This document shows, piece after piece, positions 1 to 11,488 of a stretch of DNA of 64,000 nt; positions within the stretch are counted from its first letter, which is position 1, and each line of letters starts with the position of its first letter. A program made the position numbers and the translations under genes. Under the pieces are notes generated by a model that searched no databases, had not been told where the DNA came from, and was given only the letters and a program-made list of their open reading frames with translations. Source of the stretch: Planctomycetota bacterium (GTDB lineage: Bacteria > Planctomycetota > UBA1135 > UBA2386); NCBI GenBank assembly GCA_016794035.1, contig JAEUHS010000033.1, forward strand, positions 1-64,000, in the 5' to 3' direction.

Positions 1-19
1 GACGTCGTGTACGCTCGCC

Positions 20-118
20 GCCTAACGCGGCGCAGCACCCGACGAGCCGCGAGGAATACAACCGCGAGAGCTGAAGCCCTCGCACGCGGCTCGCGCCTGA
101 TCGACTAAGACGTTGGAC
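20..118 (+). repeat. attC site 1
   Basis: Left box GCCTAAC (20-26) fits RYYYAAC and right box GTTGGAC (112-118) fits GTTRRRY. Between them GAGCCGCG near 44 can pair with CGCGGCTC near 85, giving the imperfect hairpin expected of attC. The cassette it belongs to extends left of the window. Confidence 0.8.
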
Positions 119-340
119 GGCCGCGACGTTGTCGCGGTCGCCATCGTCGGTCGGCCGTGGAGGTCGTCGTCGCCGGAAGAACCAAGAGACCTGGATGCAG
201 CGTCAGCGCGACGCCTGCTGGGTCGCAGCTGCGCGACGCCGGCAGGACGTCGGCCTTATCACTTACCGGCCCGAGGCCCCGATCCGCGGATGAGCCCGGC
301 AGGGCTTGTGCCGTACGCTGGAGTCGTGATGATGAGCGCC
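113..340 (+). other. Cassette 1: no convincing gene
   Basis: The body of the first complete cassette, between attC sites 1 and 2. Two plus-strand frames stay open but run straight through attC site 2, unlike a normal cassette gene, which stops before it. The third has a stop at 291-293. The predicted peptides are rich in Arg, Pro and Ser, as expected from out-of-frame GC-rich DNA. The cassette may be non-coding, may encode an RNA, or may hold a decayed gene. Confidence 0.5.
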
Positions 341-473
341 GTCCAACTAGCCCATGCAGGCGACGATCGACGCGGGACAGCAACCGAGCAGGCAAGCAAC
401 CAAGGATCAGAGCCGCCGCGAGGCTGACACCCTCGACCGCGTCGCTCGCGCCTGATGGGCAAAGACGTTGGAC
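341..473 (+). repeat. attC site 2
   Basis: Left box GTCCAAC (341-347) and right box GTTGGAC (467-473) enclose about 119 bases. The right half (GCCGCGAGGCTGA, then CTCGCGCCTGA) resembles the right half of site 1. At 133 bases it is the longest site in the array. Confidence 0.75.
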
Positions 474-536
474 GGCCAGGTGAGGCATCTTCCCGAGAGA
501 TGGGCTGCGTTCCTCGTCCGGCAGGGCGAGACGGGA

Positions 537-707
537 ATGGGCTACCAGACAGGCAACATCACCCTGGCGGATGGGCGATTCTTCGAGGACGTGATCATCG
601 TCGGCGGATGCATCACGAAGGTCCGTGGCCAAGCAGACATCCCGTTCGATGGTGTCGACGTGGTGAAGATCGAGATAACCGGACGGCGCTGGGACTGGGA
701 CGAGTGA
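537..707 (+). CDS. Cassette 2: small protein of unknown function
   Basis: A 56-residue soluble protein with alternating hydrophobic and polar residues typical of a small beta fold (segments such as NITLADGRF and EDVIIVGG, ending RRWDWDE). I do not recognise the family, though short proteins with a 'DGR..E.V' start are common in integron cassettes. ATG 537 is chosen because the similarity-like, well-composed part begins there. GTG 480 or TTG 468 in the same frame would extend it to 79 residues, the latter beginning inside the attC right box. The stop lies 39 bases before attC site 3, as expected for a cassette gene. Confidence 0.65.
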   Translation: MGYQTGNITLADGRFFEDVIIVGGCITKVRGQADIPFDGVDVVKIEITGRRWDWDE

Positions 708-746
708 TGTCGGGATGCATCGCAGCGCCTCCCGATCTAGACTGCC

Positions 747-846
747 GTCCAACTCGCCGCAGGAGCCGGCAAGCCGCGATCAACCCAACCGCGAGAGCTG
801 AAGCCCTCGCACGCAGCTCGCGGCTCAGCGGCAAGAGACGTTGGGC
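747..846 (+). repeat. attC site 3
   Basis: Left box GTCCAAC (747-753) and right box GTTGGGC (840-846). The inner segment around 788-815 is almost identical to site 1 (shared CCGCGAGAGCTGAAGCCCTC). GCCGCG/CGCGGC-type arms support an attC hairpin. Confidence 0.85.
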
Positions 847-857
847 AGGCCGCGACC

Positions 858-1241
858 ATGACCGGACCTACGTTCGAGGATCAACTGCTGAGTCTGTCTC
901 CCAAGGGCAAGATGGTTGCAGGCATTGCCCTCGGTGCTGCTGGCCTGGTTGCCTGCGTACTCCTCTGGGAGAACGGTTGGATCGCTTGGGCAGCGGTGTT
1001 CGCAGCGCTCTTCGGCCCCGCTATCGCCCTCATCGGGATGCGCGAACATAAACGGGCACGGTCGTTCGACGCTGAAGTCCAGCGTGCGCGAGCCGAGTGG
1101 AGTGAGCTCAAGGAGGGCATTCATGCCGCGCGACGCGATGGCGGCAACGTCGCGCGCTTTCTGCAAGCCAGGGGCTATCGCGAGTTCGCCGTCAGACGCT
1201 GGATCGCCGCCGAGTTGGACCCCGGCAAGCAGGCCAAGTAG
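858..1241 (+). CDS. Cassette 3: small membrane protein, unknown
   Basis: A 127-residue protein starting 17 bases after the cassette junction and stopping just before attC site 4, an ideal fit to one cassette. Residues about 19-38 (MVAGIALGAAGLVACVLLW) and 43-61 (AWAAVFAALFGPAIALIG) form two membrane helices. A charged, probably helical cytoplasmic tail of about 65 residues follows, rich in Arg and Glu. The tail ends in a segment (FLQARGYREFAVRRWIAAEL) that could be a protein-interaction helix. I recognise no family. Small membrane proteins of this kind occur both in phage-defence cassettes and in stress genes, but nothing here proves either role. Confidence 0.8.
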   Translation: MTGPTFEDQLLSLSPKGKMVAGIALGAAGLVACVLLWENGWIAWAAVFAALFGPAIALIGMREHKRARSFDAEVQRARAEWSELKEGIHAARRDGGNVARFLQARGYREFAVRRWIAAELDPGKQAK

Positions 1242-1244
1242 GCT

Positions 1245-1307
1245 GCCCAACGAGCCCCAGCAGCCGACGGCGCTGCGCGCCGCGGCTGAGAGCCACAGAC
1301 GTTGGAC
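1245..1307 (+). repeat. attC site 4 (short, divergent)
   Basis: Left box GCCCAAC (1245-1251) and right box GTTGGAC (1301-1307), 63 bases in all. The interior contains GCAGCCGACGGCGCTGC, a self-complementary stretch. It is shorter than the other sites and its interior differs, so this cassette may have come from another source. Confidence 0.75.
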
Positions 1308-1317
1308 GGACTCCATT

Positions 1318-1740
1318 GTGCGACTCTCCTTGACCATGGTTCTCGTAGCTGCTGCGGTCGGTTGTGACCCTAGCCCCACAGGTGCGCACGTTGCGCCTGC
1401 TGCACCCAGCGCCGCCTCGCAGATTCGTTCGGGTTCGCCGATGACAGGCGTACGAGCGTTCGTGCGTCTTGATGACAAGGACTGGGCAGAAGACCTCAAC
1501 ACCAGGCTGCACTTCTGCGTCTTCGAAAACGGGTCGGAGGACTGGATCTACGTTGGCGTCAAGTATGGCATGTGGTCCGCGGGCGATTTCGATCTCCAAG
1601 TCGGGCGACGCTTGGTGTTCACAGGGCAGGTTGACCACCTCCTCTACGGCGGCGCGCTCATCCCCATGGGAGATGTCGTGCAGGGGGAGCTAGACCACAG
1701 CTCCTTGCAGATCACTCGCGTGACCGGCATGTTCAAGTAG
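1318..1740 (+). CDS. Cassette 4: lipoprotein, unknown function
   Basis: A 140-residue protein with a short signal peptide ending in a lipobox (VAAAVGC), so it is probably anchored to a membrane by a lipidated Cys. GTG 1318, 16 bases after the cassette junction, places an Arg before the hydrophobic core; ATG 1336 is too close to the lipobox. The mature part, after a Pro/Ala-rich linker, contains a beta-rich domain (LHFCVFENGSEDWIYVGV, later GRRLVFTGQVDHL). This reads like a small ligand-binding or protein-interaction fold. The stop directly precedes attC site 5. No known family is recognised. Confidence 0.75.
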   Translation: MRLSLTMVLVAAAVGCDPSPTGAHVAPAAPSAASQIRSGSPMTGVRAFVRLDDKDWAEDLNTRLHFCVFENGSEDWIYVGVKYGMWSAGDFDLQVGRRLVFTGQVDHLLYGGALIPMGDVVQGELDHSSLQITRVTGMFK

Positions 1741-1742
1741 CC

Positions 1743-1840
1743 GTCCAACTCCACGCAGGAGCCGGCGAGCCGCGACCAGCGCAACCGCGAAACCAGACCC
1801 CTCGCACGCGGCCCGCGGCTGAGCATCCAAGACGTTCGGC
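1743..1840 (+). repeat. attC site 5 (array end, degenerate right box)
   Basis: Left box GTCCAAC (1743-1749). The right box is GTTCGGC (1834-1840), with C where GTTRRRY needs a purine. The interior again has GCGAGCCGCG and CCGCGGCT arms and the CCCTCGCACGCGG core shared with site 1. No further attC can be seen to the right, so this is the last recognisable site. Confidence 0.75.
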
Positions 1841-1870
1841 CGACACTCTTCCACGGTCAAGGAGACCGAC

Positions 1871-2377
1871 ATGCCCGCCCGTACGACTGACAAGACTGCC
1901 AAGCCCGCAGGCCGAAGATCGGCCAAGCGCACCGTGGCAAAGGGCAAGGCTGCCACGACTCTGCCGGAATCCATGGTCACCGGCAGAGCGAGCTCCGCGA
2001 AGGCCGCAGTCGGCGACAAGGCGGTCTTCGACTACATCGCCAGTCTTCCTCAGCCGCAGCGCGGCATCGCGGAACGCGTCGATGCCCTTGCGACCAGGAC
2101 GCTTCCCGGCCTGCAGCGCTGCGTGAAGTGGGGCATGTCGTACTACGGCGTCGGCGACGGCTGGTGTTTCTCCTGCGGCGGATTCGCCGACCACGTCAAG
2201 CTGATGTTCGTGAACGGGGTCGCGCTCGAGCCGGTACCGCCCGTGACGCCGGTCGCGATGGGCAAGTCCACTCGGGGCGTGGAACTCGAGTCGGTGCACG
2301 ACCTCGACGAACGCCAAGTCGCGGCGTGGATGATTCAGGTCGCGGCCGTGCCCGGTGTCGGAGGGAAGCGGCGCTAG
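1871..2377 (+). CDS. DUF1801 domain protein after the last attC
   Basis: A 168-residue protein. The first 45 residues are a Lys/Arg/Ala-rich disordered tail. The rest resembles the DUF1801/YdhG-like family (segment DALATRTLPGLQRCVKWGMSYYGV, then a Cys-Gly-Gly core and a KSTRGVE turn), small soluble proteins of unclear function. A good Shine-Dalgarno sequence (AAGGAG) precedes ATG 1871. The gene starts 36 bases after the degenerate attC site 5 and no attC follows it. It is therefore either the last cassette with its site lost, or the first fixed chromosomal gene beyond the array. Confidence 0.8.
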   Translation: MPARTTDKTAKPAGRRSAKRTVAKGKAATTLPESMVTGRASSAKAAVGDKAVFDYIASLPQPQRGIAERVDALATRTLPGLQRCVKWGMSYYGVGDGWCFSCGGFADHVKLMFVNGVALEPVPPVTPVAMGKSTRGVELESVHDLDERQVAAWMIQVAAVPGVGGKRR

Positions 2378-2559
2378 GCCCACGCGCCGCGAGCGGCTGG
2401 CGGTGGCCGCCCGGGCCCGCATCGGGGACGCGTTCCCGTTCGCGGAGACCGGTCAGCTGCTGCAGCGCGTCGACCGCGAGGTCGCCGCACGCCCCGGGCG
2501 GCTGAGGAATTCCGGCCGTGCCGGTGTGTGGTTTCGCGCCCGTTGCCGCTGGCTCGGGC

Positions 2560-4407
2560 ATGAGCCCCCTACGCACATCCCTCTGGTTGCTCTTCGTCGC
2601 CACAGCCCCGGTGTCGTTGCCGGCCCAGTCCCTGCTGAAGGACGTCTGGGCCGGCGGCGGCAGTTCGAACCCGACCTACCTCACGGTCATGGGCGGCGCG
2701 GTCTACTTCCTCGCCGAGACCCCCGCGGCCGGCATCGAGCTGTGGCGCAGCGATGGCACCACCGCCGGTACGACGATGGTCGCCGACATCAACCCGACGC
2801 CGGGCGCAAGCGCCTTCTCGATCGTCAGCAACCAGCCCGAGTTCGTGGCGTTCGGCACGACGCTGCTGTTCTGGGCCAACGACGGCACGAACGGTCGCGA
2901 GCTGTGGCGCAGCGACGGCACCGCCGCCGGCACGCAGATGGTGCTCGACATCAACCCGGGGGCCGGCAGCAGCGACCCCTGGGGCTTCACGGTGTCCGGC
3001 AACCGCGTGTTCTTCTTCGCGACCACGCCGTCGGCCGGGCAGGAACTGTGGGTCACGGACGGCACGGCGGTGGGCACGCACATGGTGATCGACTGGTGGC
3101 CGGGGACGAACGGCGGCGGCGGCTACGCCTACAGCTTCACCCCCGGCCAGGGCCGGCTCACGATGGTCGCGTTCGGCAATGGCGTGCTATGGAACGCCTG
3201 GGTCAATGCCTTCCCGGTCGTACCCGCCGGGTGGGTTCCGGCCCTGGCCTTCTCGGACGGCACGGCGGCCGGCACCTCGCTTGTCGGCAGCGCCTACGAT
3301 CCGCGGGACCTGACGCCGTTCGGCAACGGCTTCCTGTTCAGCAGCTACTCGGCGACGACCGGCACCGAGCCGTGGTTCACCGACGGCACCGTGGCCGGCA
3401 CGTTCCCGCTCGGTGACCTCGCGACCGGCACGGCCGCGTCGGTGGACACCAACAGCCTGACGCTGTTCCGGCCGAAAATCGTGGCTGGCCGCGCCTGGTT
3501 CGTCGCCAACTCGACCGCCGACGGCTACTCGCTGTGGAGCACGGACGGCACGCCAGCCGGCACCAGCGTGTTCTTCGCGCCCCAGGTCGCGGATCCGTCC
3601 TCGCAGGTCCGCAACGTGCGCGCAGCCGGCGACCGCCTCTACGTGGAGGTCTACACGCCGACCTACGGCAGCGAGATGTACGTCACCGACGGCATCAACC
3701 CGCCGACCCTGGTCGTCGACCTGAACCCCGGCGCCGCCATCGGCTGGAACTCGTTCGTCGGCTATCTGGCCATCGGCCAGGGCCGGCTCGCGGTCACGAC
3801 GATGCGACCGACCGACTCGATCGGCGACGAGCCGTGCATCACCGATGGCACCGCCGCCGGCACGCACCTGCTCGCGAACCTCGCCACCAGCAGCTTCAAC
3901 TCCTCGAGCCCGCGCGAGTACACGCGCCTCGGCGGCAAGATCCTGTTCTCGGCGCAGGACAACGGCGTGACCGGGCGGGAGCTGTACTCGCTCGACGTGG
4001 CCGGCTTCGACGCCGCCGAAGCCGACGCCTATGGCCTCGGTTGCGCGGGAACGGGCGGCGCGGTGCCCGCCCTGGCCGCGGTCGGTGCGCCCGTGCTCGG
4101 CAACACGGCATTCGGCGTGCGTCTCACCAACGGCCTCGCCAGCGCGCCGACGGCGGTGTTCTTCGACTTCGCCCCGGCGGCGATCCCGGCCGGCCCGTGC
4201 ACGGTGTGGATCCAGGCGCTGACGATCGCCGCGCCCGGCGTGACGGACGCAACCGGTGCCTTCCAGGTGCCGCTGCCGCTGGTCGGCGCCGCCGCCACGC
4301 TCGGCCTCGAGTTCTGGGGCCAGGGCTTCGTGCTCGATGCGAACGGGCTCCTGTTCGGCGGGCTCGGCAGCCTCAGCAATGGGGCGCACGTTCGGGTCGG
4401 TCACTGA
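2560..4407 (+). CDS. Secreted ELWxxDGT-repeat protein
   Basis: A 615-residue exported protein. ATG 2560 opens a clear signal peptide (hydrophobic core LWLLFVATAPVSLPA). The body consists of about eight repeats of the ELWxSDGTxxGT type, each 40-60 residues, most likely forming a beta-propeller. Clear copies end ELWRSDGTTAGT, ELWRSDGTAAGT and ELWVTDGTAVGT; later ones are degenerate. The C-terminal 130 residues are a separate module beginning YGLGCAGTGG. Related modules end the proteins at 16758 and 46861. ELWxxDGT proteins are known as large surface or secreted proteins of unsettled role. The gene stands alone between the cassette region and the polysaccharide locus. Confidence 0.9.
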   Translation: MSPLRTSLWLLFVATAPVSLPAQSLLKDVWAGGGSSNPTYLTVMGGAVYFLAETPAAGIELWRSDGTTAGTTMVADINPTPGASAFSIVSNQPEFVAFGTTLLFWANDGTNGRELWRSDGTAAGTQMVLDINPGAGSSDPWGFTVSGNRVFFFATTPSAGQELWVTDGTAVGTHMVIDWWPGTNGGGGYAYSFTPGQGRLTMVAFGNGVLWNAWVNAFPVVPAGWVPALAFSDGTAAGTSLVGSAYDPRDLTPFGNGFLFSSYSATTGTEPWFTDGTVAGTFPLGDLATGTAASVDTNSLTLFRPKIVAGRAWFVANSTADGYSLWSTDGTPAGTSVFFAPQVADPSSQVRNVRAAGDRLYVEVYTPTYGSEMYVTDGINPPTLVVDLNPGAAIGWNSFVGYLAIGQGRLAVTTMRPTDSIGDEPCITDGTAAGTHLLANLATSSFNSSSPREYTRLGGKILFSAQDNGVTGRELYSLDVAGFDAAEADAYGLGCAGTGGAVPALAAVGAPVLGNTAFGVRLTNGLASAPTAVFFDFAPAAIPAGPCTVWIQALTIAAPGVTDATGAFQVPLPLVGAAATLGLEFWGQGFVLDANGLLFGGLGSLSNGAHVRVGH

Positions 4408-4498
4408 GCGGCGGCGGTGGCCGGCGGGTGCCTTCGCCAGACGGGACCGCAACGCGCGATCTTCGTGCAGCAACGGTTGTCGGCCACTGCGCGAAGGG

Positions 4499-5722
4499 TC
4501 AGCGCGCGGGCGTGCGCACCCCGACCGCCTGCGTCGTCCAGCGTGCGAGCACTTCGGTACGCGCGGCTTCGCCGAGCCGCAGCCGCAGCGGTGCGTCGTC
4601 GGTGGCGGTCAGCAGCAACGGCGCGAACGCCGCCGCAGCGGCCGCGAGCCAGCCGTTCACGCCGTGCTGCACGCAGTCGCGGTACGGCCCCACCGCGGCC
4701 GCGATCACCGGTCGGCCGACCAGCGCCGCTTCGACCCACTTCAGCTCGCTCTTGCACGCCGTGAACAACGCATCCACCAGCGGCACCAGGTGCACGTCTG
4801 CGCGCCGCAGCAGCGCCGGCAGCTCCGGCCACGGCACGGCCGGGCGGCGTTCGATGCGATCCGCGAACGGCGCGAGCTCCGCCGGCACCGCGACCTCCCC
4901 GACGAGCAGCACCCGAACCTGCGACCGTGCTGCGAACAACGCCGCGAGCGCCGGCGCGATCGTCGCGAGGTCGGCGTCGTGCGTGCGGGTGCCGGCGAAG
5001 TAGCCGAACGTGACCGTGCCGTCTTCGGCGACGTCGGGCACCGCCGCGCGCGCCGCGTCGCTGCGTTCGACCATCGCGCGGCTGGCGACGTTCTTCACCA
5101 CCTCGACCTGCAGATGCGGGAAGCACCGCCGCAGCTCCCCCGCCAGCGTCGCCGTCGCGGCGGTCGCGCGGTCGACCAGCTCGAGCACCTGACCGATGCG
5201 GCGCAGCTGCTGCACGTAGAGTTCGCGGCCGAGCTCGCTGTAGCCGCGCAGGATCGGCAGCTCGGGGCCGTAGCGTTCGTGGATCACCAGGTCGTCGACG
5301 TCGACCACGACCTGCTTGCCGCGGTCGCGGGCCGCACGCACGAACGCCTCGACCGACGGGTCGTGCGGCACCCGCTGCAGCACGAACCGCTGGTAGCAGT
5401 CGACGTAGTCCAGCAGCGGCGCGGCCGGCCAGTCGACCAGGTCGCCGGTCCCGCCGGCGAGCTGCAGCTGCTCGAGCGCGTGTTCGCAGCGCCAGCGGCG
5501 CGGGTGGCCGGGACAGCCGGCCACGAACAGCACGTCCTTGTGCGTCCCGCGCGGTGGCAAGGGCGTTTCGGCGGCGGCAGAGACCGTGTCGACGTAGCCG
5601 CGCAGCCGCCGCCAGGTCGGCCCGAGGCCCTCGGCGCGCAGCGAGCGCCAGAACAGCGCGGCCAGCGTGCCGAGACTCTCGCCGCGCCGGGCGAACAGGA
5701 AGCGCAGCGCACGCACGGCCAT
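4499..5722 (-). CDS. Glycosyltransferase, GT4/GT1-like, polysaccharide locus
   Basis: A 407-residue protein with the two Rossmann-like halves of GT-B glycosyltransferases. The donor half carries a GYFAGTRTHDADL segment and a ACKSELKWVEAALVGRPVI motif (the E-x7-E type region that binds the nucleotide-sugar), followed by the PY-x-D-x-V-x-H-G-x-NG turn typical of the family. Start ATG 5722 (MAVRALRFLF) is preferred to an upstream ATG at 5803. The gene diverges from the asparagine-synthetase fusion 110 bases away and probably acts in the same surface-polysaccharide pathway. The transferred sugar cannot be told from sequence. Confidence 0.85.
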   Translation of the reverse strand: MAVRALRFLFARRGESLGTLAALFWRSLRAEGLGPTWRRLRGYVDTVSAAAETPLPPRGTHKDVLFVAGCPGHPRRWRCEHALEQLQLAGGTGDLVDWPAAPLLDYVDCYQRFVLQRVPHDPSVEAFVRAARDRGKQVVVDVDDLVIHERYGPELPILRGYSELGRELYVQQLRRIGQVLELVDRATAATATLAGELRRCFPHLQVEVVKNVASRAMVERSDAARAAVPDVAEDGTVTFGYFAGTRTHDADLATIAPALAALFAARSQVRVLLVGEVAVPAELAPFADRIERRPAVPWPELPALLRRADVHLVPLVDALFTACKSELKWVEAALVGRPVIAAAVGPYRDCVQHGVNGWLAAAAAAFAPLLLTATDDAPLRLRLGEAARTEVLARWTTQAVGVRTPAR

Positions 5723-5832
5723 GGATCGGCCTGACGGTAGCTGGCCGTACGCCGCGGCGCCATCGCACAGGACCGTTCCAAGGCCCTGGCCCGTTCCTTG
5801 CATCCGCCCGAGCGAGCCGCAGAATCGACGCC

Positions 5833-8800
5833 ATGTGCGGTATCGCGGGAATCGTCGACCACCAGGGCAGATGGAGCCGCGAAGAGCTCGCGCGCATCGC
5901 CCGCAGCATGGCCGACGCGATGCCCTACCGCGGCCCGGACGACAGCGGCGTCTGGGTGTCGCCGGACGGGAAGTGTGCCCTGGCCCACCGCCGCCTGTCG
6001 ATCATCGACACCAGCTCGGGCGGCCACCAGCCGTTCGTGCTCGGCGAAGGGCGCCACGCGATCACGTTCAACGGCGAGATCTACAACTACCTGGAGCTCA
6101 AACAGGAGCTCGAGGCCGCGGGACACGCGTTCCAGACCCGCAGCGACACCGAGGTCCTGCTGCACCTGCTGGCCGAGCACGGCGAGGCGGCGATCGAACG
6201 GCTCGACGGCCAGTTCGCGTTCGCGCACTGGCACGCGGCCGAACGGCAGCTGCTGCTCGGCCGCGACCCGTTCGGCGAGAAGCCGCTCTACTGGAGCGAA
6301 GGCCCGGGCTGGTTCGCGTTCGCCAGCGAGCTGCACGCGCTGCCGAAGGTGCCCGGCTTCGACGCGACGATCGACCAGGACACGATCGCCGAGTACCTGG
6401 CGCTGCAGTACGTCGACGCGCCGCGCTCGATCTACCGCCACGCGCACAAGCTGAAGCCGGGCCACTGGCTGCGCGTCGCCGCCGACGGCCAGACCCGCAT
6501 CGGGCGGCACTTCGGGTTCGAGCCGCGCGGCGGCGTGCGCCCGTCGCGGCCGATGGCCGAGCTCGCCGACGAGCTCGAGGCGATCCTGCTGCGGCTGATC
6601 CGGCGCCGCATGATCGCCGACGTGCCGCTCGGCGCGTTCCTGTCGGGCGGCGTCGACAGCTCGACCGTCGTCGCGCTGATGACCAAGGCGCTCGGCGGCA
6701 CCGTCAAGACCTTCTCGATCGGTTTCGAGAACGCGCCCGACGAGACCGAACACCTGTTCGCGCGGCAGATCGCGCAGCACCTCGGCACCGACCACCACGA
6801 CCGCGTGCTCGAGCTCGACGTGCTGCCGCTGATGCACCACATCGGCACCGTGCTCGACGAACCGAACGGCGACAGCTCGTGCCTGCCGACGTTCCTGGTG
6901 TCGAAGATCGCCAAGGAGCAGGTCACCGTGTGCCTGTCCGGCGACGGCGGCGACGAGATGTTCGGCGGCTACGGCCGCTACTTCGCGACGCTGCAGGACG
7001 AAGCCAGGCTGGCCGACTTCGACGCGGGGCGGCAGTACTTCGGCAGCCGCATGCTGATCTACTGCGACGAACACCTGGCCGAGCTGTTCGGCCAGGTGCC
7101 GCCGCGCACGGCGGCGATGCTCGGCTCGCTGCGGGCCCGCATGGGCCGCGGTCCCGGTCCGCTGCTGCACCGCATGCGCGCCTACGACGCCGCGCACTAC
7201 ATGCCGGGCGCCGTGCTGGCCAAGGTCGACCGCATGTCGATGCAGCACTCGCTCGAGGTGCGCACGCCGTTCCTGAGCCGCGAGCTGGCGGCGTTCGCCG
7301 AGCAGCTCGCCGTCGACGACTGCTACGCGCCGGGCGGCCTGCTCGGGCCACAGGGCAAGCTGGTGCTGAAGGAGGTCGCGCAGCGCTACATCCCGCGCGC
7401 GTGGCTGGACCGCCGCAAGATGGGGTTCGGCGTGCCGACCAAGACCGGCTGGGGCCGCGACAAGATGCTCGGCTGGATGCAGGAGCTGGTCGTCGCCGGC
7501 GACAGCAAGCTGTCGCAGTGGATCGACGGCAAGGGCCGCGCGGCCTACGCGCGCCGGCTGTCGTCGCCGGGCAACTTCTCGTTCTACCAGGCGTGGCTGA
7601 TGCTGGTGCTCGAGATCTGGCTGCGCAACCACGGCAGCGCGCGCGGCGAGCCCGCCGAGGCGCCGCCGATCGAGGTGCGCACGCTGGCCGATGCGATCGC
7701 CCCGGGCAGCCGCCAGGAGGATCTGCTGCTGTGCCAGCACCTGCGCGCCGCGGCGGCGCCCGCGGTCGTGTTCTGCGCCGACGACCTGCCGAGCTGGGTG
7801 CACGAGCTGCCGCAGGGGTCGCTGCTCGTGACGCCGCAGCCGACCGAGACGCCGCCACACGTGCACAACCGCGTCATCGCCTGGAACGGCCGCGAAGCGC
7901 CCGACAGCGAACAGCTCGCCGCGCTGCCTCCCGGCCCGGCGGTGTTCGCGACCCCGCTGCGCGAGGCCCACGCCGACGTGCTCGGCATGCTGACCGACCG
8001 CGGCCAGACGATCCTGCACCGCGTCGGCGACCGCTGGCGCGCGCGCGACGCCGCCACGGCCGCCGCCGCCAACGGTCACGGCCCGGCACCACGGCTCGGT
8101 GAACGCCTGTTCGGCGAGAAGCTGCCGGCGCGGCCCGGCCAGATCGAGGCGGCCGGCGGCTTCGCGTTCCGCGTACGGCTGCCGAAGCTCGCGCGCGCCC
8201 GCGCGCTCGACCGCACCGCGCGGCTCGTCGTCTACGAGAACGACCGCCGTCTGCCGCACTCGGGCAGCAGCGCGCAGGCGATCGTGCACTTCGGCCGCGG
8301 CCGCCACGCGCTCGAGGGCGAGTGGCTGTGGTTCTCGGCCAGCGACAACTCGGACCCGAACCACAACGGCCGCCGCTATCTGGTCGCGCTGCAGTCGAGC
8401 ACGCGCGGCGGTCTGTGGCACTTCCTCGGCCGCACGCCGATCGCGCACCTGGCGCTCGACGCGCGGGAAGGACTCGAACGGCTGCGTTCGCGCGGGCGCA
8501 CCGACGCGCCGCTGCGGTTCCGCTTCCGCCGGCCGTTCCCGCACGACGGCGGTGCGTGCTGGCTCGCGCCGCTGCGGCGCATGCGCGTGCCGCTGGCGCT
8601 GCTGCAGCAGGGCTGGCGCGCCGTCGTGCTCGAGGACGGCACCGCGCTCGGACCGCCGGACCAGGTGCACGAGGACGTGCGGCGACTCGGCAACGGCCGC
8701 TACTCGGTCTGGGACGACATGATCTGGTTCGCGTCCAGCGACAACACGAACCCGAATCGCAACGGCCGCACCTACGTGCTGGCGCTGCATCCGCCGGGCG

Positions 8801-10131
8801 CCGTCGTCGACGACGCATCCGCGCAGGGCGCCGAACTGCAGCCCGCGCTGGCCTCCGACGCCGAGTTCGATCGCGAACTGGCGCGGCTCGCGGTCGAGCC
8901 CGCGCCGCGCGCGCCAAAGCTCGCGGCCGGCAGCAAGGTCGTGCTGGTGATCGGCGCGCTCTACGCCGGCGGCACCGAGCGCCAGATCTGCAACCTCGCG
9001 GTCGAACTCGACCGCCGCGGCCACGCGGTCACGATCCTCGCCCTGGCGGGCCTCGACGGCACGGCCGGCCACTATCGCAGCCTGCTGCACGGCACCGGCG
9101 TCGCGCTGCGCGCCGCGACCCACGCCGAGGCGCAGTTCTCGCTCGGCGCCGCGGCCGCCGACGACCGCCGCCTGCATCTGCTCGCCGGCCTGCCGGCCGG
9201 TCTGCGCGACGAGGTCTGGCGCCTGTTCTCGCACCTCGCCGTGCTGCGACCCGAGGTCGTGCACTGCTGCCTCGACGGCCCGAACATCAGCGGCGGCATC
9301 GCCGGCCTGCTCGCCGACACGCCGTGCATCGCGCTCGGCATCCGCAGCTTCAACCCGACCCACTACCCGCACCAGCTGCGGCCGTGGTTCGAGCGCTACT
9401 ACCGCCTGCTGGCGTCGAGCGCGCGCGTGCGCCTGTTCGCCAACAGCCGCGTCTGCGCCGACGACTACGCGCAGTGGCTCGGCACGGACCCGGGCTTCCG
9501 GCTGGTGCGCAACGGGCTCGACACGGCGGCGCTCGGCTCGTCGACCGAAGCCGAGCAGCGCGCGTTCCGCGGCGAGCTCGGCATCCCGCTGCAGGCCCCG
9601 TTGGCGACCGGCCTGCTGCGCCTGTGCGAGGAGAAGCAGCCGCTGGTGTTCGTGCGCGCGGTCGCGGCGGCCCATCGGCTGGTGCCCGACCTGCACGCGG
9701 TGCTCGCCGGCGAAGGCCCGCTGCGGCGCGAGACCGAACAGCTGGCGCAGAAGCTCGGCATCGCCGACCGCCTGCACCTGGTCGGCCGCCGCCAGGACGT
9801 GGCGACCCTGCACGGCGCCGCCGACGTCGTCGTGCTGACCTCGCGCATCGAAGGCACCCCGAACGCGTTGCTCGAGGCGATGTGGTTCCGCCGGCCGGTC
9901 GTCGCGACGCGCGCCGGCGGCTGTGTCGAGGTGGTCGACGACGGCGTCACCGGCACGCTGTGTGACGTCGGCGACGCGGACGCACTCGGTCGCGCGATCG
10001 CCGAGTTCGCGCGCGATCCGGCGCGGCGGGCCCGGTTCGGCGATGCCGGTCACCGGCGCGTCCAGGAGCGCTTCTCGCTGCAACGCATGGTCGACGACAC
10101 GCTGGCGATGTACCGCGGAGACGACGCATGA
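5833..10131 (+). CDS. asnB: Asparagine synthetase-glycosyltransferase fusion with two copies of a novel domain
   Basis: A 1432-residue multidomain protein. Residues 1-215 are a class II glutamine amidotransferase starting MCGIAG, so Cys2 is the nucleophile. Residues about 230-600 are an asparagine-synthase ATP-pyrophosphatase domain (SGGVDSS near 272, LSGDGGDEMFGG near 369). Residues 777-853 and 894-985 are two copies of an unrecognised domain (NGRRY and GNGRYSVW hallmarks). Residues about 1035-1430 form a complete GT4 glycosyltransferase (AGGTERQICNL, EGTPNALLEA). AsnB-like enzymes in polysaccharide loci are thought to amidate sugar carboxyls with glutamine nitrogen. The fusion could couple amidation to glycosyl transfer. 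The frame is open throughout, with consistent codon use, so the fusion does not look like an artefact. ATG of the next gene overlaps its TGA. Confidence 0.9.
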   Translation: MCGIAGIVDHQGRWSREELARIARSMADAMPYRGPDDSGVWVSPDGKCALAHRRLSIIDTSSGGHQPFVLGEGRHAITFNGEIYNYLELKQELEAAGHAFQTRSDTEVLLHLLAEHGEAAIERLDGQFAFAHWHAAERQLLLGRDPFGEKPLYWSEGPGWFAFASELHALPKVPGFDATIDQDTIAEYLALQYVDAPRSIYRHAHKLKPGHWLRVAADGQTRIGRHFGFEPRGGVRPSRPMAELADELEAILLRLIRRRMIADVPLGAFLSGGVDSSTVVALMTKALGGTVKTFSIGFENAPDETEHLFARQIAQHLGTDHHDRVLELDVLPLMHHIGTVLDEPNGDSSCLPTFLVSKIAKEQVTVCLSGDGGDEMFGGYGRYFATLQDEARLADFDAGRQYFGSRMLIYCDEHLAELFGQVPPRTAAMLGSLRARMGRGPGPLLHRMRAYDAAHYMPGAVLAKVDRMSMQHSLEVRTPFLSRELAAFAEQLAVDDCYAPGGLLGPQGKLVLKEVAQRYIPRAWLDRRKMGFGVPTKTGWGRDKMLGWMQELVVAGDSKLSQWIDGKGRAAYARRLSSPGNFSFYQAWLMLVLEIWLRNHGSARGEPAEAPPIEVRTLADAIAPGSRQEDLLLCQHLRAAAAPAVVFCADDLPSWVHELPQGSLLVTPQPTETPPHVHNRVIAWNGREAPDSEQLAALPPGPAVFATPLREAHADVLGMLTDRGQTILHRVGDRWRARDAATAAAANGHGPAPRLGERLFGEKLPARPGQIEAAGGFAFRVRLPKLARARALDRTARLVVYENDRRLPHSGSSAQAIVHFGRGRHALEGEWLWFSASDNSDPNHNGRRYLVALQSSTRGGLWHFLGRTPIAHLALDAREGLERLRSRGRTDAPLRFRFRRPFPHDGGACWLAPLRRMRVPLALLQQGWRAVVLEDGTALGPPDQVHEDVRRLGNGRYSVWDDMIWFASSDNTNPNRNGRTYVLALHPPGAVVDDASAQGAELQPALASDAEFDRELARLAVEPAPRAPKLAAGSKVVLVIGALYAGGTERQICNLAVELDRRGHAVTILALAGLDGTAGHYRSLLHGTGVALRAATHAEAQFSLGAAAADDRRLHLLAGLPAGLRDEVWRLFSHLAVLRPEVVHCCLDGPNISGGIAGLLADTPCIALGIRSFNPTHYPHQLRPWFERYYRLLASSARVRLFANSRVCADDYAQWLGTDPGFRLVRNGLDTAALGSSTEAEQRAFRGELGIPLQAPLATGLLRLCEEKQPLVFVRAVAAAHRLVPDLHAVLAGEGPLRRETEQLAQKLGIADRLHLVGRRQDVATLHGAADVVVLTSRIEGTPNALLEAMWFRRPVVATRAGGCVEVVDDGVTGTLCDVGDADALGRAIAEFARDPARRARFGDAGHRRVQERFSLQRMVDDTLAMYRGDDA

Positions 10132-10547
10132 AGCCCGCCGGGCCGGTGTTCCACTGCTTCTCGGTCGTCGCGGTCAGCGGCTGGATGCTGCTGGCCGCCA
10201 GCTGGCTGCTGGTGCGCGGCAAGCTGCCCGGCCGCTACCTGCTGCAGGTCGGTCGCGCGATGTGCCGCCGGCGCCACCGCGGCGAGCTGACCGACTTCCG
10301 TCCGGAGCAGGGCCGCTGCTTCGTCGCCACGGTCCAGGCGGGCGTGCCGTCGGACGCGGACATCGGCAGCCGGCTGGTCGTACTCGAGAACGGCACGCCG
10401 CTGCCGCACCCGCACGCCGCGCACGACGACATCCGCCGGCTCGGGGGCGGCCGCTACTCGCACTGGACCAGCAACGTCTACCTCGCGACCAGCGACGACA
10501 GCGACCCGCGCAGCAACGGCCGCCGCTACACCGTGGAGGAACGGTGA
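10128..10547 (+). CDS. Small membrane-anchored protein with the novel polysaccharide-locus domain
   Basis: A 139-residue protein made of one N-terminal membrane helix (residues about 11-29, VVAVSGWMLLAASWLLVRG), a basic stretch, and a single copy of the domain found twice in the preceding fusion. The domain shows VVLENG, HDDIRRLGGGRYSHW and SDDSDPRSNGRRY. It has no catalytic partner, so here the domain acts alone at the membrane. Basic residues after the helix suggest that the domain faces the cytoplasm. Its ATG overlaps the stop of the fusion gene (ATGA) and its TGA overlaps the GTG of the methyltransferase, so the three should be translated together. I do not recognise it beyond this. Confidence 0.85.
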   Translation: MKPAGPVFHCFSVVAVSGWMLLAASWLLVRGKLPGRYLLQVGRAMCRRRHRGELTDFRPEQGRCFVATVQAGVPSDADIGSRLVVLENGTPLPHPHAAHDDIRRLGGGRYSHWTSNVYLATSDDSDPRSNGRRYTVEER

Positions 10548-11488
10548 GCGCCGTGCCCGGTCCGCGACGCCGCGACGAGCGCGGCCCGCACCCGCTGCTG
10601 TCGGTGCTCGCGTGCCCGACCTGCAGCGGCCGCCTGCTGCTCGACCGCGACGCGCTGCGCTGCGCATGCGGCCGGCGCTACCCGATCGTGCGCGGCGTGC
10701 CGCGCTTCGTGCCCGACGACGGCTACGTCGGCTCGTTCAGCTTCGAGTGGAACACGCACAACCGCACCCAGCTCGACTCGGCCCGCGGCGACACGATGTC
10801 GCGGGACACCCTGGTCGAGAAGACCGGCCTCGACGCGCAGCAGCTGCGCGGCAAGCTGGTGCTCGACGCCGGCACCGGCACCGGCCGCTTCAGCGAGGTG
10901 ATGGCCGGCATGGGCGCACGCGTCGTCGGCGTCGACCTCAGCCTCGCCGTCGAGGCCGCGCACGGCAACCTCGGCCACCGCGACGACGTGCTGATCGCGC
11001 AGGCCGACATCGGCAGGCTGCCGTTCGCGCCGGCGACGTTCGACGTGATCGTCAGCATCGGCGTGCTGCACCACACGCCGGACACGCGGCGGCACTTCGA
11101 GGCGCTGGTGCCGCTGCTGAAGCCCGGCGGCACGATCGCGATCTGGGTCTATCCCGACGCAGGCGACTACCGGATCCGCAACCACTGGATCCCGTGGACC
11201 AACAAGATCCCCCCGCGCATGTTCTACGAATGGTGCCGCTGGTTCGTGCCGTTCGTGCACCGGCGCCAGGGCTCGCGCATCCAGAGCCTCGCCGCGCGCC
11301 TGTTCCCGTACAGCCAGCAGAGCTACGGCATCGAGAACGACATCCTCGACGTGTTCGACGGCTACTCGCCGCGCTACCACGGCATCCACTCGCCGGCCGA
11401 GGTGATCGGCTGGTTCGAGGCCGCGGGCCTCGTCGACGTGCACGAGGCCGGTCCGGTGCAGACGAGCGTGCGCGGTCGCAAGCCGTGA
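10544..11488 (+). CDS. SAM-dependent methyltransferase with Trm112-like zinc ribbon
   Basis: A 314-residue protein. Residues about 25-60 are a Trm112p-type zinc ribbon (LACPTC ... CACGRRYPIV). A class I SAM methyltransferase follows, with motif I LDAGTGTGRFSE, an acidic residue closing strand two (GVDLS), the motif GVLHHTPDT after strand four and a KPGG turn. The last 80 residues are aromatic-rich and may hold the acceptor. Such fused proteins are common in O-antigen and capsule loci, where they methylate sugars or nucleotide sugars. GTG 10544 overlaps the preceding stop (GTGA). GTG 10553 is an alternative start. Confidence 0.88.
   Translation: MSAVPGPRRRDERGPHPLLSVLACPTCSGRLLLDRDALRCACGRRYPIVRGVPRFVPDDGYVGSFSFEWNTHNRTQLDSARGDTMSRDTLVEKTGLDAQQLRGKLVLDAGTGTGRFSEVMAGMGARVVGVDLSLAVEAAHGNLGHRDDVLIAQADIGRLPFAPATFDVIVSIGVLHHTPDTRRHFEALVPLLKPGGTIAIWVYPDAGDYRIRNHWIPWTNKIPPRMFYEWCRWFVPFVHRRQGSRIQSLAARLFPYSQQSYGIENDILDVFDGYSPRYHGIHSPAEVIGWFEAAGLVDVHEAGPVQTSVRGRKP

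Follow-up and report, generated by a model that had tools for sequence, protein, structure and literature searches.

A cassette array at the end of a Planctomycetota contig, probably part of a sedentary chromosomal integron system

The stretch of DNA analysed here (the window, 64,000 bases) comprises bases 1–64000 of contig C80 (126,479 bases) from G000, a MAG of 4.83 Mb in 133 contigs with 3.15% contamination. It was compared with its two congeners, G001 and G002, both Planctomycetota MAGs, which agrees with the planctomycete-like chromosome seen in the initial annotation; the genus sample is these three genomes, all of them MAGs in which every array meets a contig end. Window base 1 is also base 1 of the contig, so that any leftward extension of the array is beyond reach. 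The features of the locus are as follows, with R1 and R2 denoting two covariance models described below.

1–112, + strand: 3' part of the first cassette, whose 5' portion is lost at the contig end
20–118, + strand: attC 1, R'' GCCTAAC and R' GTTGGAC; R1 75.7 bits, E 3.7e-16; R2 19.4 bits, E 0.016
113–467, + strand: cassette 1, 355 bases
341–473, + strand: attC 2, boxes GTCCAAC and GTTGGAC fully complementary; R1 66.3 bits, E 7.5e-14; R2 46.9 bits, E 1.9e-9
468–840, + strand: cassette 2, 373 bases; ORF 468–707, 79 aa with TTG as start or 56 aa with the ATG at 540
747–846, + strand: attC 3; R1 86.5 bits, E 8e-19; R2 E 1.2e-7
841–1301, + strand: cassette 3, 461 bases; gene 858–1241 for a 127-aa membrane protein
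1245–1307, + strand: attC 4; R1 47.4 bits, E 3.2e-9; R2 E 2.8e-8
1302–1834, + strand: cassette 4, 533 bases; gene 1318–1740, 140 aa, N terminus lipoprotein-like by eye
1743–1840, + strand: attC 5, final site of the array, R' GTTCGGC; R1 66.0 bits, E 8.6e-14; R2 21.5 bits, E 0.0045
1841–4531, no strand assigned: post-array flank with a DUF1801 gene and a 629-aa repeat protein gene, missing at that place in the two congeners
1871–2377, + strand: DUF1801 gene, downstream of the final attC; at most a candidate cassette gene
2518–4407, + strand: 629-aa repeat protein gene with repeated ELWRSDGTAAGT-type motifs
4532–11475, no strand assigned: syntenic chromosomal block, also in G002:C51 and in G001:C9 (one alignment reaching 10119)

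Structurally, the five repeats are attC sites. The bottom strand of an attC folds as a hairpin, usually with R'' and R' boxes, an unpaired spacer and two extra bases in one arm, and IntI cuts beside the R' box (G^TT). RYYYAAC and GTTRRRY boxes lie at the positions first reported, as do the cassette spacings of 355, 373, 461 and 533 bases, although the boxes are strict in only four of the five sites, the R' of attC 5 (GTTCGGC) being one base off. Strict complementary box pairs 50–150 bases apart were absent from the remaining 62 kb of the window, and first-order Markov resamples of 1–1840 held a mean of 0.021 box pairs (maximum 2 in 2000 resamples). In an alignment (A1) of the five window sites with five from two other contigs of G000, all sites share the R''/R' boxes and an unpaired spacer of two bases versus six, and the 5' arm has two extra bases about seven positions apart, such that the attC plan is seen throughout, with its R and L boxes, its unpaired spacer and its bases outside the helix. 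Cells of the A1 structure were paired in 87% of cases versus 27–36% in slid-partner controls, and both-side changes occurred in 11 of 24 pairs (shuffle mean 5.6, with none of 500 shuffles as high).

Two covariance models containing no window sites place all five same-direction sites, in agreement with the fold and the covariation. Model R1, trained on eight attC sites that all lie outside the window, found the five at their exact coordinates (E 8e-19 to 3e-9), with the next-best place in the window at only 20 bits (E 0.016); a covariance search scoring none of the sites had been named at the outset as grounds for giving up the attC reading, and the search came out the other way. On a class 1 integron plasmid region, the top R1 match was the resident attC, with its strand correctly called (E 0.00025, against 0.17 for the runner-up). 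Model R2, built from 37 R1 matches near intI in other phyla with Planctomycetota left out, ranked the same five sites first to fifth in the 64-kb window (E 1.9e-9 to 0.016); it is not fully independent of R1, because it was seeded from R1 matches, and as a foreign model it gave low scores to attC 1 and attC 5.

Functionally, the cargo was initially described as unrecognised, which mostly stands, with matches to Pfam, PHROGs and PADLOC absent or weak, except that the family of the cassette 3 gene has chromosomal homologues in relatives. Genes end just before an attC in three of the four cassettes, as first noted, with stops 39 nt (707, before attC 3), 3 nt (1241, before attC 4) and 2 nt (1740, before attC 5) upstream; ORF inspection of cassette 1 (113–467) gave no convincing gene, and the cassette 2 ORF belongs to no family in Pfam or PHROGs. 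The cassette 3 gene had weak or sub-threshold matches only (Pfam, PHROGs, PADLOC), and the C-terminal part of its protein (NVARFLQxRGYREFxVRRWI) was found again in several genomes of the family, at loci that showed no attC at E < 0.001 with R1 or R2. One such attC-less homologue, at 32.1 kb of G001:C18 (about 32.08–32.45 kb), seems frameshifted; its stretch is missing from the syntenic regions of G000:C118 and G002:C1, and homologues in other genera show no synteny with the G001 site. Two histories would fit: a resident gene became a cassette, or the gene arrived as a cassette, settled and then lost its attC. The cassette 4 product looks like a lipoprotein, and its protein has a 55% identical homologue in another genome (G011:C37:654–1040), flanked by what look like decayed attC sites. 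A search for the window's cassette proteins found none in G002, and in G001 only the cassette 3 relative, outside any array.

The initial annotation had inferred an integrase and attI to the left of the array, where the contig in fact ends; the only full intI of G000, with attI, lies on a different contig (C121:760–1704, minus strand; TIGR02249 451.6 bits, cut-off 265). The integron-specific patch that had been expected of this tyrosine recombinase was found, on C121 and not on C80: the protein aligns over its whole length with IntI4 of PDB 2a3v, the integron-specific insertion ALARKYPNADRSWPWQWVFP included, and in that alignment it keeps all catalytic motifs (R-K-H-R-H-Y). Evolutionarily, it falls within a well-supported 16-row group of the IntI tree (99%), each row of which is either Planctomycetota or from the same search family. 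A second integrase match (G000:C95 16945–17547) is a remnant that breaks off at position 203 of 315, and no attC was found on the part of C95 covered by the genome-wide scan.

Between the intI stop and the first cassette, a related stretch occupies the same place in G000, G001 and G002 and ends each time in GTTRGGC (GTTGGGC in G001, GTTAGGC in G002); judged by its sequence, this is attI with its crossover at G^TT. The intI locus is syntenic in the three genomes, with FtsX/ABC transporter genes upstream, and in C121, G001:C29 and G002:C25 alike intI is transcribed toward attI and the cassettes, so that transcription of intI could carry on into the reading of the cassettes. Among the intI loci at which R2 scored attC sites, 40, all non-Burkholderiales, have them 3' of intI and on its strand; in six, all Burkholderiales, they lie on the opposite side and strand.

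Taken together, positions 1–1840 very probably form the 3' end of an array that belongs to a sedentary chromosomal integron system, with the C121 integrase as its most likely enzyme. Integron cassettes can be cut out, taken up at attI or transferred from one array to another. In the mechanism that we propose, each unit would pair an attC with at most one small, promoterless gene, the C121 IntI would act on the window sites in cis or in trans, the cassettes could be read along with intI transcription, and the window array would more likely be one of several chromosomal arrays than the distal part of the one next to intI. From the sequences, we infer that recombination is probably active and that the C121 IntI acts on the window attC sites.

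Within G000, attC sites number five on C80, four plus one decayed candidate (C85:82583) on C85, and two on C56, and each of these arrays is followed by different downstream chromosomal DNA. Arrays are scattered over the chromosome and outnumber the full integrases. Contig C56 ends inside the attI that C121 also carries, with 81 identical bases shared, and the two contigs diverge four bases beyond the attI G^TT crossover into different first cassettes; this fork would mean either that the sample contained two cell types differing in the first cassette or that attI is present in two copies. Synteny links the C56 flank to G002:C41, itself array-bearing, and the C85 flank to part of G001:C15, where a single attC lies further along. 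The C56 flank was rejected as the proven 3' flank of the intI locus: G002:C41 supports it, whereas G001:C40 continues without an array. The gene adjoining the C56 array is elsewhere in G001. At the right end of C56 (about 38.9 kb), as at the end of G002:C25, half attC sites with the 5' arm only are joined to unrelated DNA.

Because the flanks of C80, C85 and C56 differ, the C80 array is more likely detached than the tail of an intI-adjacent array, and we consider a detached, CALIN-like status fairly probable. The other arrangement, the one favoured in the initial annotation, in which C121 (intI, attI, cassette A and so on) would run through to C80, with C56 representing another strain or a second attI, is a real if lesser possibility: C121 ends within its first cassette and C80 begins within one, as expected if a repeat-rich array had broken the assembly, and no site follows attC 5. 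Against it, C56 has the same attI, its own short array and a block that also adjoins an array in G002 (C41), and C85 provides a third array flank, when a single genome can have no more than one of these three arrays in cis. If strains are mixed in the MAG, a single array could appear as several. Any junction of array and intI would fall outside both contigs as assembled, C80 stopping at window base 1 and intI being on C121.

To the right, the C80 array borders a rearrangement. Gene order in G001:C9 and G002:C51 is continuous across the point matching window position 4532, with no array there, and of the intervening genes the one at 2518–4407 has no Pfam match and its closest G001 DNA match at a different locus, on C33. 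The whole of 1–4531 is foreign in the congeners, which implies a larger rearrangement and rules out that the array arose by clean insertion of a single cassette at a secondary site.

Among relatives, the first cassettes differ between G000, G001 and G002 despite the syntenic intI locus, so the turnover that a comparison of cassettes between relatives had been expected to reveal was seen. Across the family, attC sites occur in 26 of 34 genomes (E 1e-4) and a full intI in 15 of 34. In G002:C1 (about 67.2–68.7 kb), an attI copy, a short stretch resembling the intI 3' end and three cassettes occur without intI, inserted between two convergent genes that are adjacent without the insert in G000:C118 and G001:C18. 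This array looks like a copied platform whose integrase was lost, a mechanism that would fall among the routes proposed for detached arrays, namely off-target insertion, intI loss and rearrangement (PMC8618304). Empty-site searches gave no match for the lone attC at G001:C32, its flanks being too poorly conserved, and none in G000 for G001:C15, whose two sides lie on two different G002 contigs. By eye, cassette 1 of G002:C25 and the second cassette of G002:C41 look related in their genes (…SRRSGRPI..W(S)A(K/R)(Y/F)…), which suggests that a single genome can hold families of cassettes.

Could the array instead be a fossil, recognisable but no longer recombining? The off-consensus R' box of attC 5, the decayed or half sites at array ends (C85:82583, C56 and G002:C25) and the C95 remnant at position 203 of 315 would suit that reading, but the boxes of attC 1–4 are consensus and those of attC 2 fully complementary, the C121 integrase is intact, congener cassettes are completely different, and the C121/C56 fork lies four bases beyond the attI crossover point, all of which make it unlikely. 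That the five repeats belong to some other inverted repeat family is extremely improbable: palindromic repeats are common in GC-rich genomes and an Rfam search of window 1–6000 returned chance-level matches only, leaving these repeats without a matching family, but the sites run in one direction between one-gene units, their box and extra-base pattern is exact, and the models detect the same kind of site 3' of intI at 40 loci in many phyla.

Returning to the integron reading, a broader scheme is conceivable, if rather doubtful, in which cassettes were spread over many loci throughout the family by the integrase or by copying of the attI platform, arrays became gene-order breakpoints, and new cassettes arose from resident genes. 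The last element is suggested by the attC-less homologues of the cassette 3 gene, of which one occupies a G001 site where the gene is missing from G000 and G002.

Already known are integrons as such, covariance models of Planctomycetes attC sites (PMC8352920), CALINs (PMC8618304) and the same-direction layout (PMC3607928). What the present locus adds is a documented example, from an uncultured family of Planctomycetota, of a complete integrase accompanied by attI and several cassette arrays, together with two concrete cases: for CALIN formation, the intI-less attI copy with three cassettes in G002, matched by an empty site in two relatives; and for cassette origin, the cassette 3 gene, whose chromosomal homologues lack a recognisable attC. 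Should the C121/C56 fork be a polymorphism within the population, it would point to ongoing natural turnover of cassettes at attI.

Among known systems, transcription of intI toward attI is the layout of the sedentary chromosomal integron of Treponema denticola (PMC3607928), and likewise here intI, attI and cassettes run in the same direction, attC sites are similar within one genome and cassettes are mostly of unknown function. The present system differs from the Treponema denticola type in its planctomycete phylum, its attC sites of 60–135 bases, its several arrays per genome and a window array unlinked to intI in the assembly. A CALIN, as defined by Cury et al. (summarised in PMC8618304), is a cluster of attC sites lacking integron integrases; contig C80 as assembled resembles one in having at least two attC sites and no intI, with the reservation that its left side, where the window starts, is a contig end and that a full intI exists elsewhere in G000. 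For Planctomycetes attC sites, Ghaly et al. 2021 provided a covariance model (PMC8352920), and our sites are likewise planctomycete, chromosomal and taxon-specific enough for such a model. Resemblance extends even to class 1 integrons, in that the C121 IntI is 51% identical to IntI1 over 92% of the protein in most records and R1 recognises a class 1 plasmid attC. In class 1 integrons, however, intI and cassettes are divergent and attC types are mixed, whereas the planctomycete system is chromosomal, with uniform attC sites.
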